DNA of 48,477 nucleotides from Flavobacteriales bacterium (GTDB lineage Bacteria; Bacteroidota; Bacteroidia; Flavobacteriales_C; GCA-002722245), in the NCBI GenBank assembly GCA_947444925.1, contig CANFBW010000023.1, positions 1 through 48,477 on the forward strand. The letters are read 5' to 3'. Positions 14,943 through 32,978 of this stretch are shown here, one piece after another. The notes beneath the pieces were generated by a model. That model was not told the DNA's origin, searched no databases, and saw only the letters and a program-made list of their open reading frames with translations. Position 1 is the first letter of the stretch. Each line of letters begins with the position of its first letter. A program made the position numbers and the translations under genes.

Positions 14943-14972
14943 TTGTTCATTTCCCATTTTTTTATACATTTG
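14943..14972 (+). promoter_or_regulatory. Promoter of the SRP RNA gene
   Basis: TACATTTG at 14965-14972 matches the Bacteroidota -7 consensus TAnnTTTG exactly. A TTG at 14943-14945 sits 19 bp upstream as the -33 element. The inferred RNA 5' end is about five bases downstream of the box. Confidence 0.7.
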
Positions 14973-14976
14973 CCTT

Positions 14977-15074
14977 GGGGTAAGTCTTGTACGACCAGCT
15001 CCTGCCGAACTCCCCCAGGTCTGGAAGGAAGCAAGGGTAGGTGGTTGAGCGGTGCGATGCAAGTAGCTTACCCT
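14977..15074 (+). ncRNA. ffs: Signal recognition particle RNA (4.5S type)
   Basis: The small bacterial SRP RNA, which binds Ffh and targets nascent membrane proteins to the Sec translocon. The apical helix and loop core is clear: CCCCCAGGTCTGGAAGGAAG, then CAAGGGTAGG, which closely resembles the E. coli core around GTCCGGAAGGAAGCAGCC. The distal strand GAGCGGTGCGATGCAAGTAG follows. The ends close by pairing of GGGTAAG (14978-14984) with CTTACCC (15067-15073). The length of about 98 nt fits the small form without an Alu domain. Exact ends are inferred from the closing helix and the promoter. Confidence 0.9.
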
Positions 15075-15091
15075 ATTTTTCTTAAATAGGG
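15071..15091 (+). terminator. Hairpin at the 3' end of the SRP RNA
   Basis: CCCTATTT pairs with AAATAGGG across the five-base loop TTCTT. It has no long T-run after it, so it is a weak terminator or a 3' processing and stability structure. Confidence 0.45.
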
Positions 15092-29910: not shown

Positions 29911-30825
29911 TTAATTATCACCATAACTGTGGTAAATCAAGCTTGCCGCTCCAAGAATACCAGCATTTTCTCCATCAGACGCTTTTCTAAATTCAATGCC
30001 ATCGCAGTAATATGCAGGTAGATTTTCTCGAATTGTTTTTTCTGTTTGTGGAATAAAAAAATCGAAAGCTCCGGCAACCCCTCCTCCAATTACAAATTTA
30101 TTGACGTCAGAAAAACGCATCATTGAAATCAAACCATAACCCAATGCTTTTCCAACATGCTCCCAAACAGCTAAGGCAAGTTTATCCCCTTTTGTAGCGG
30201 CTTCAAAAATTAGTTTTGGATTGATGTTTTGTTTACTCAAGTCTGACGTAGCGAAGGCTGGATCTTTTGCTAAATTATTAGCGTACTCCGTAATTTGATG
30301 TAAACCCAAATGCTGTTCCACCGTTTTACCTTCCATTGGTGTAAACATGTGTCCTACCTCAGTAGCATTTCCGCGCGAACCCAAAAATAATTTCTTATCA
30401 CAAATATATCCTCCACCAACACCAGTGCCAAGTGAGATGAACAAAAAGTCAGTCATGCCCTTTGCTTCACCAAATTGCAATTCGCCTAAGGCAGCGCACT
30501 TTGCATCGTTTTCAATTTTAACAATGAGTTTAGGCAGTTCCTTTTTGAATTTAGCAACCACTTCCTCATTGGCTACACCTGGCACATTGGGCAGTAAAAT
30601 AACGTTTTTTCGGTCTTTGGAAACCAAACCAGGAAATCCTATCCCAATGCCTTCCACTTCTGGAAATTCAGCAATAATGCTTTTTACTTCCTTAATCATT
30701 GCATCTGTAATTCCTGCCGCAGCTGCTTGCATCGTATCGATGCGCTTGGCAAAAGCAATTTCACCATTCAGTTTAATCACTCCAAATTTGATGGTCGTAC
30801 CACCAACATCAATTCCTATAACCAT
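29911..30825 (-). CDS. ROK-family glucokinase
   Basis: A 304-aa sugar kinase of the ROK family, most likely phosphorylating glucose to glucose-6-phosphate in the cytosol. The ATP-binding start MVIGIDVGGTTIKFGVI, the KIENDAKCAALGE sugar-site motif, FISLGTGVGGGYI and the EVGHM His are visible. The Cys-rich zinc motif of many ROK repressors and kinases is absent (TPMEGKTVEQHLG instead), as in some glucokinases. There is no HTH domain, so it is a kinase rather than a repressor. The neighbouring GH3 would supply glucose, consistent with this role. The substrate could instead be another hexose or N-acetyl sugar. Confidence 0.88.
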   Translation of the reverse strand: MVIGIDVGGTTIKFGVIKLNGEIAFAKRIDTMQAAAAGITDAMIKEVKSIIAEFPEVEGIGIGFPGLVSKDRKNVILLPNVPGVANEEVVAKFKKELPKLIVKIENDAKCAALGELQFGEAKGMTDFLFISLGTGVGGGYICDKKLFLGSRGNATEVGHMFTPMEGKTVEQHLGLHQITEYANNLAKDPAFATSDLSKQNINPKLIFEAATKGDKLALAVWEHVGKALGYGLISMMRFSDVNKFVIGGGVAGAFDFFIPQTEKTIRENLPAYYCDGIEFRKASDGENAGILGAASLIYHSYGDN

Positions 30826-30908: not shown

Positions 30909-30939
30909 TTGAATAAAATCTAGTGACATTGAACAAAAT
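30909..30939 (+). promoter_or_regulatory. Direct repeats similar to the 25339 site
   Basis: TTGAATAAAAT (30909-30919) and TTGAACAAAAT (30929-30939) are 20 bp apart. They share the 11-mer, and part of what follows it (TAATG), with the site upstream of the 25428 gene. The site is about 85-115 bp upstream of the glucokinase start but points away from it. Confidence 0.35.
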
Positions 30940-30981
30940 CTTAATGATTATCCGCAATTGCACCAGTCCTATGACAGAAGT

Positions 30982-31119
30982 GGCGATTGGTCCTTCGGGG
31001 TACTTCAGGAGGACAATCATTCTCAAAAAACAATATGTGTAAAATCGTTCGCTTTTGTCCTCCTGAGATTTGAGATTAAGAGGAGAAACGAAATTTCGGT
31101 TTTTGAAGGACCAATCGCC
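30982..31119. repeat. Nested inverted-repeat element (MITE-like or structured RNA)
   Basis: Outer arms GGCGATTGGTCCTTC (30982-30996) and GAAGGACCAATCGCC (31105-31119) are perfect 15-bp inverted repeats. Inner arms TCAGGAGGACAA (31005-31016) and TTGTCCTCCTGA (31055-31066) are perfect 12-bp inverted repeats. The right arm also contains CGAAATTTCG, a 10-bp palindrome. The structure is about 138 bp long and lies between the glucokinase and beta-glucuronidase genes. No clear target-site duplication flanks it. Confidence 0.7.
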
Positions 31120-31175
31120 CTAAACATAAATCTACTGTTACGATTCCACATAATCATAAATCTTAAGACAGGATA

Positions 31176-32978
31176 TTACTTTAACTGCCAATCGGCATAA
31201 AACTTTTGCACCACATAAAATGCCTTTTTCCTATCTCCATGTTCAGAGATCAATCCTTTTCGGTTCCAAAAATTTTGAATGGATGGCAACGGTCGTCGCG
31301 GTGAACGAAAATCAGCCAATACCCAAGGTGAAACTCCTCTCAAAAAAGGAATGCGCTGCAGCATGGCAAGTTGGTGTTTAAAATAATTTTCCTGATACTC
31401 TTCGGTAAAGCGAACGTTGTTGGCGCCATGCATTCCGAAAGCAGCATCGGCTCCAGTCTCGCTAATCACCAATGGCTTATTGTATTTGGTAGTCCATGAA
31501 ATACTGTCGCAGGCCTGCGGAGTTTTATCTCCATACCAACCAATGTACTCATTGCAACCAAGAACATCAAGATACGCTCCCAAAGGATCGTCAATCATCA
31601 TCGTGTTTTTGTCGGAAGTATGAATTTCCAACGCAGCAGAAATCAACCTCGTGCTATCAAGTTGTCTTGTGGCATCCACCAGTGCTTTCAAAAAAGTTAG
31701 TCGAGGCATGCTTAAAGGAGTTTCATTCGCCATTGACCAAATCATCACGGACGCTTTGTTTTTGTCACGTGTAATCATTTCAGTCAATTGCTTTTTCGCG
31801 TTTTCTAAAACCAAAGGATTGCTCCATTCTATAGTCCAGTATACTGGGATTTCCGACCACACGACCAATCCCAATTGATCAGCCAATCGTGTCATGTTTT
31901 CATTGTGCGGATAATGCGCCAAGCGTACATAATTGCAGCCGAGTTCCTTTGCCCAGCCCAGCAGCAAACGCGCATCTTCCATACTGTAGGCGCGCGCGCC
32001 ACGGGTGGGCACTTCTTCATGAATACAAATTCCTTTGAGCAACAATTGTTTTTTGTTCAATAAAATATCATGTCCCTTTGTTTCAATGCAACGAAAACCA
32101 ATTTGATCTTCTAAGGTGTCATTGCCAACAATAACTAACACTTTATACAATTTCGGATTTTCAGGCGACCACAATATCAACTTCGTTTTTATAGCTATTG
32201 GCGCAAGTCCTAAGGCATCACTTGTTGTTTCAAAATCAACTTTCGCATCAGGAATGCATACTTTTATTTTTTGTGATTTATTGGCGCCGTTTAATTGAAC
32301 CCAACCACTAATTTCGTTGAGACTTCCTTTTTTCAATTGAATATAGGTGTCCTGCACAAAAGTATTTTCAACTTCAATCAACTGCACATCCCTTGTCAGT
32401 CCTCCGTAATTCCACCAATCTGTATTCAATGTAGGTACGCCGTCTTTGCTTCGCTTATTGTCGGCTTTGACTACCAGGTAATTGTCTTTCTCTACGAGCA
32501 AATCCGTGATTTCAAAATTAAATGGCGTGAATCCTCCCGTGTGCTCACCAATTTTTTTGCCATTCAAATAAATGTGTGCTTTATAATTGACAGCACCAAA
32601 GTAGACAAATACTCTTTTTTGCTTTTCGCTCTTTTTGTAATCAAAAGACCGCTTGTACCAAATAGTGCCTTCGTACCATTTTAACATTTCCATCTGCGAA
32701 TTCCAATCGCCAGGAACATATAATTCATCAGAAGCATCAAAATTATATTCAACCAGCTGTGATGGATCAGCAGCTTTTTCATTCTTAAAATAACCGGCAG
32801 CACTCTCTTCGTAGCGGTAATTGTAAAAACCATTTTCATATGGATCGACAATGATTTTCCACTTACCATTGAGCGACTGAGTTGATCTATTATCGGTATT
32901 GGTAATCAAAGTATTTTGCGCTGACACAAAAGTCTGGAGGAACAAAAAAAGTGTTGCTATTTTCATTTCTATTTTCAT
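31176..32978 (-). CDS. GH2 beta-glucuronidase
   Basis: A 600-aa GH2 enzyme with a signal peptide (MKIATLFLFLQTFVSA, from the internal Met5). The order is sugar-binding domain (LNGKWKIIVDPYENG to GGFTPFNFEITDLL), immunoglobulin-like domain, then TIM barrel. The acid/base is Glu419 in WSMANETPL and the nucleophile is Glu507 in VISETGADA, close to E413/E504 of the 603-aa E. coli beta-glucuronidase. The Asn572-Arg-Lys574 (NRK) motif near the C-terminus corresponds to the NxK that binds the glucuronate carboxylate and separates glucuronidases from galactosidases. It should release glucuronic acid, probably in the periplasm, for the uronate operon upstream. Its promoter carries an operator-like site shared with that operon. 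Confidence 0.85.
   Translation of the reverse strand: MKIEMKIATLFLFLQTFVSAQNTLITNTDNRSTQSLNGKWKIIVDPYENGFYNYRYEESAAGYFKNEKAADPSQLVEYNFDASDELYVPGDWNSQMEMLKWYEGTIWYKRSFDYKKSEKQKRVFVYFGAVNYKAHIYLNGKKIGEHTGGFTPFNFEITDLLVEKDNYLVVKADNKRSKDGVPTLNTDWWNYGGLTRDVQLIEVENTFVQDTYIQLKKGSLNEISGWVQLNGANKSQKIKVCIPDAKVDFETTSDALGLAPIAIKTKLILWSPENPKLYKVLVIVGNDTLEDQIGFRCIETKGHDILLNKKQLLLKGICIHEEVPTRGARAYSMEDARLLLGWAKELGCNYVRLAHYPHNENMTRLADQLGLVVWSEIPVYWTIEWSNPLVLENAKKQLTEMITRDKNKASVMIWSMANETPLSMPRLTFLKALVDATRQLDSTRLISAALEIHTSDKNTMMIDDPLGAYLDVLGCNEYIGWYGDKTPQACDSISWTTKYNKPLVISETGADAAFGMHGANNVRFTEEYQENYFKHQLAMLQRIPFLRGVSPWVLADFRSPRRPLPSIQNFWNRKGLISEHGDRKKAFYVVQKFYADWQLK

Follow-up and report, generated by a model that had tools for sequence, protein, structure and literature searches.

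The IS1595 family of insertion sequences, the definition of which reportedly goes back to Siguier and colleagues in 2009, has transposases of the DDE type, and target duplications at precise element ends are a signature of DDE transposases. Y1 enzymes, to our knowledge, make no target-site duplications. For the IS1595 family the target duplication is 8 bp long (PMC12561309, PMC10045372), and that of its member ISApl4 is preferably A/T-rich (PMC12561309). Among the Y1 transposases of Bacteroidetes, genes of subclass 2.6 are flanked by 'atypical secondary structures' that are copied elsewhere in the genome (PMC6006769).

Here we analyze an obscure nested palindrome from the genome of a Flavobacteriales bacterium, using coordinates of the window (the whole 48,477-nucleotide stretch of DNA that was analyzed). 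The palindrome is very probably the interior of a 214-bp non-autonomous IS1595-type MITE that carries an inverted pair of REP-like arms as its cargo. Its structure would then be explained by one mobile system overlaid on another, with REP-like hairpins inside a DDE-type MITE. A literature search on the repeat sequence returned unrelated subjects only, and separate searches for a publication joining REP and MITE found none.

Results

The element lies between genes for a ROK-family kinase (29911–30825, minus strand) and a GH2 glycoside hydrolase (31176–32978, minus strand), 18 bp past the stop codon of the latter. A first-pass annotation of the sequence had reported a perfect 15-nt outer inverted repeat, a perfect 12-nt inner one and a short palindrome, all of which we recovered: the outer repeat (GGCGATTGGTCCTTC) at 30982–30996 and 31105–31119 and the inner repeat (TCAGGAGGACAA) at 31005–31016 and 31055–31066, each with 100% identity, and the palindrome CGAAATTTCG at about 31088–31097. 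The assertion that these repeats were far beyond chance also held, in that, when the 220-bp region was shuffled 2,000 times, the longest exact inverted repeat was 12 nt (found once), and one of 15 nt never arose.

The bounds originally given to the element (30982–31119) proved too narrow and enclosed just its interior. An alignment of 29 copies with their flanks, in which similarity begins and stops sharply at the ends, placed the complete unit at 30944–31157 (214 bp), with ~24-bp terminal inverted repeats that open as ATGATTATCCG.. at 30944 and close as ..CGGATAATCAT at 31157. The left terminal repeat (ATGATTATCCGCAATTGCACCAGT; 30944–30967, plus strand), delimited by the end pattern, and the right one (31134–31157, minus strand; reverse complement ATGATTATGTGGAATCGTAACAGT) are bordered by two perfectly matching 8-bp duplications, AAATCTTA, at 30936–30943 and 31158–31165. 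Inside the terminal repeats, two subterminal segments, delimited by the alignment and by module order, form the 'A' side (30968–30981) and the 'B' side (31120–31133) of a backbone. Between these segments lie a short REP-like arm that combines one arm of the 15-nt outer repeat with one of the 12-nt inner repeat (GGCGATTGGTCCTTCGGGGTACTTCAGGAGGACAA; 30982–31016, plus strand), a central loop (31017–31054) and a long REP-like arm (31055–31119, plus strand), in which the inner 12-nt and outer 15-nt complements are separated by a hairpin module that we call M. M, which includes the CGAAATTTCG palindrome, occupies 31068–31103 on the plus strand, as matched by a covariance model (G000:C23:31068-31103). 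The only open reading frame in the element is one of 80 amino acids, and the element contains no transposase gene.

A MITE-like mobile palindrome was among the identities originally suggested, together with a search for further copies, and the genome bore out this suggestion. A 181-bp query gave 73 local matches in its own genome at about 40 separate places, of which 28 were copies with both ends, their 24-nt ends inverted relative to each other. Lengths across the ~40 places ranged from 171 to 214 bp, and the units with matching ends were uniform at 207–214 bp. The outcome named beforehand as refuting the observation, a lone genomic copy that relatives do not conserve, was thus not obtained. 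The end pattern occurred 55 times in the genome (25 on the plus and 30 on the minus strand), and a reversed control pattern did not occur. When a 1-nt shift of the element end was permitted, as some copies required, a perfect 8-mer duplication flanked 14 of the 28 copies (compared with 0.13% of 756 mispaired flanks), and flanks matching at 7 or more of 8 positions were found for 21 of the 28 (compared with 2.6% of the same 756). The 8-bp repeats are target-site duplications; the insertion targets were AT-rich. All but one of the 28 copies fell outside long ORFs, although ~82% of the sampled bases lay within ORFs of at least 150 amino acids, and the copies sat beside unrelated genes in tandem, convergent and divergent contexts. 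One copy (L042:2387-2615) had a tandem repeat, CAAATGCGAACAAAGGTCCGTCATGG.., in its loop.

A potential source of the transposition machinery was found in another genome of the same genus, which contains a 1,004-bp insertion sequence (L068:2805-3808) with the same ends in inverted orientation. Its single gene, of 307 amino acids, encodes an IS1595 transposase (Pfam PF12762, 2.1e-24; NCBIfam NF033547, 5.9e-60), and an 8-bp duplication, ATTAGTTA, flanks it on both sides, 1 nt off the ends as we defined them. Homology between the MITE and this insertion sequence is limited to the ~24-bp ends. The home genome yielded a decayed remnant of an IS1595 transposase, with many stops and without a Pfam match, and no intact IS1595 transposase. 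The MITE is therefore probably stranded there now. Because repeats tend to drop out of MAG assemblies, an intact copy could also be missing from the assembly.

Other genomes had ends of this kind around other sequences. In the same-genus genome G003, a unit at L067:2618-2823 had the same ends and a perfect duplication, TATGCTAA, around a different cargo, a CGTCATTGCGA..CTCGCAATGACG palindrome; another such unit lies in L095, which may also contain one more whose ends are weaker. G004 contained five 179-bp units (L093:911-1089, L096, L099, L101 and L090) with similar ends and a GGCCTCATCC..GGATGAGGCC palindrome inside. At the level of sequence, ends of this kind have thus served repeatedly to enclose different palindromic cargo. 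The exact end pattern also occurred in Prevotella UBA3776, where a pair of ends spans 408 bp around masked sequence, and in Desulfobacterales, Cyclobacteriaceae and Algoriphagus (L078-L082, L084), and a scan of viral contigs for the element ends gave no match. Another IS1595-family element, at L106 (G001:C25:4209-4661), had different ends, GGTGATGACCCATTAAATGGC...

Inside the MITE, the short arm (GGCGATAGATCCTTCGGAGTACCTCAGGAAGACAA) and its complement, which with an insert forms the long arm, make an inverted pair around the 38-nt loop. The modules were not ordered alike in all copies: the insert was on one side in ~13 and on the other side in ~9, one copy (L020) had no insert and thus no M, and another (L027) had its loop reversed. 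Such differences could have arisen by inversion at the nested pair of inverted repeats, or else because copies gained the insert independently. G001 contains paired arms of a similar sort (L073:2903-3003 and L054) that lack these terminal repeats.

The insert is M, a 36-nt module of the form ATTTGATATTAAGAGGAGAA-(stem)-TTCGGTCTT with a conserved 5′ tag. Across the genus, the distal stem of M covaried (score 0.149, compared with 0.056 for shuffles, none of 500 of which reached it) in a set of 16 distinct sequences that, having been picked by hand, was not a random sample. M sits in the middle of palindromes of at least five otherwise unrelated families (TCCTGAG, GTCATTGCGAG, CGCTTAG, GAGCCAAGAG and AGCTTTCAGCTTC; L117-L146, L157-L184), usually 1 nt after GAG or TAG (31 of 43 distinct contexts, which are not independent because many belong to one family). 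Its covariance model detected M 56 times in the home genome and 2–23 times in each of four further members of the genus, but not in any of five sister-genus genomes; scanning viral contigs gave no match to M. Over these ten genomes, which were the same whether the search was made at the level of the order or of the family, the presence and absence of a Y1 transposase gene coincided with those of M, a coincidence that may reflect mere kinship. In three genomes, a Y1 gene lay between inverted repeats resembling M-bearing families (65 nt at 91%, 61 nt at 97% and 39 nt at 92%). Two of the at least four M-bearing families other than that of the MITE are involved in this flanking of Y1 (RAYT-type) genes. 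These framed genes (L072:1890-2749, L149:1444-2151 and L152:1419-2083) look like small autonomous elements, and further Y1 genes were noted on C78 and C31 from the ORF list and one motif scan.

These observations bring up a speculative scenario, to which we give a minor chance, in which M itself is mobile or exchangeable: a Y1 transposase of the genus would move M, in single-stranded form, to the tips of hairpins belonging to several unrelated palindrome families, and one of these families would later have hitchhiked within a MITE of the IS1595 type. Such mobility of M is unproven.

A broader role for Y1 enzymes would make the element primarily a repeat of the REP/REPIN type spread by a Y1 (RAYT) transposase, with the outer ends and duplications secondary. 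This reading draws on the inverted pairing of the inner arms, the sharing of the M hairpin with repeats that flank Y1 transposase genes, and the occurrence of M and the Y1 transposase in the same five of ten genomes; against it stand the 8-bp duplications at the precise outer ends and the failure to find the TCCTGAG-type arm flanking a Y1 gene. We consider the reading improbable. By inspection, a GTAG/GTGG guide was absent from the foot of the arms and of M; Bacteroidetes subclass 2.6 is reported to be atypical (PMC6006769). The first-pass suggestion of a REP-like element is correct in part: REP-like arms in an inverted pair make up the interior, though they are tied to a Y1 transposase only indirectly.

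Still less probable is a structured RNA, either a leader or a 3′-UTR element, that regulates the glucokinase or the GH2 gene. The sequence does fold stably as a minus-strand RNA (z of −6.2), as expected because any such palindrome must fold in single-stranded form. An alignment of 27 copies, however, had double changes in 11 pairs, compared with 8.6 ± 1.9 after shuffling, and a covariation score that was matched by 73 of 500 shuffles, such that the helices of the MITE, for which a covariation check had been proposed, had no excess over shuffles. An Rfam scan of the whole window placed no family at the element, the varied gene contexts of the copies fit regulation of one gene poorly, and the glucokinase-like genes of relatives (~41% identical) had no element alongside. 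With no covariation excess and no conservation of the site in relatives, the proposal that the glucokinase leader contains a structured RNA is unsupported. An M hairpin does occur downstream of the glucokinase-like gene of one relative. The sole Rfam match in the window was a small SRP RNA of the Bacteroidales type at 14971–15077 (RF04183, 97 bits).

We give almost no credence to an intrinsic terminator, which the position just after the GH2 stop codon would suit and of which a terminator scan found no trace (in keeping with the original opinion that the structure was not a terminator), or to a chance palindrome, which the shuffles oppose and the copy number refutes.

Discussion

The terminal repeats, the 8-bp duplications, the ~40 copies and the matching insertion sequence within the genus together identify the element as a MITE of the IS1595 type. 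It is real and of a known kind, and most likely a selfish mobile repeat rather than an RNA that regulates glucokinase. Judging from the ends that it shares with the full-length element, an IS1595 enzyme most likely moved it. In the proposed mechanism, an IS1595-family DDE transposase, supplied in trans, would either excise the MITE unit or copy it, and would insert it into AT-rich 8-bp targets that become duplicated. At some point two REP-like arms in inverted orientation, with M on one of them, would have been captured within IS1595-type ends. The nested perfect repeats that first drew attention to the locus would be this captured cargo, and the differences among copies would reflect rearrangement of the arms and loop after capture.

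The reuse of such ends in sister species, where they carry quite different palindromic repeats, adds to the significance of the MITE. The only really novel lead is the possible, and unproven, mobility of M between hairpins. If it is true, one mobile system would be nested within another and the mobile hairpin would be very small; movement of M between palindrome families would then offer a concrete handle on an open question, namely how the palindromic repeats that Bacteroidota carry in high copy number spread and mix.

Described systems invite comparison. The Y1 genes of the genus that are framed by repeats resemble Bacteroidetes Y1 subclass 2.6 in their flanking repeats (PMC6006769). REPINs or BIMEs and their RAYTs (TnpA-REP) resemble the element in having an inverted pair of hairpin-forming arms, in being intergenic and multicopy, and in having related families of M-bearing repeats beside Y1 transposase genes; the element differs from them in its outer ends of the DDE type with target duplications, in showing no GTAG-type guide and in that its own arms were not found beside a Y1 gene. 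The closest likeness is to MITEs and the IS1595 family, with which the element shares inverted terminal repeats, 8-bp AT-rich duplications, small size and the lack of a gene, and to which a full-length IS1595 element with matching ends in a sister species ties it. Its ends (ATGATTATCCG..) differ from those of ISApl4 (GGGGCTGTACTAGA; PMC12561309). Compared with other members of this group, it has no intact partner in its home genome, and it is set apart by its palindromic, REP-like cargo, which varies by species.
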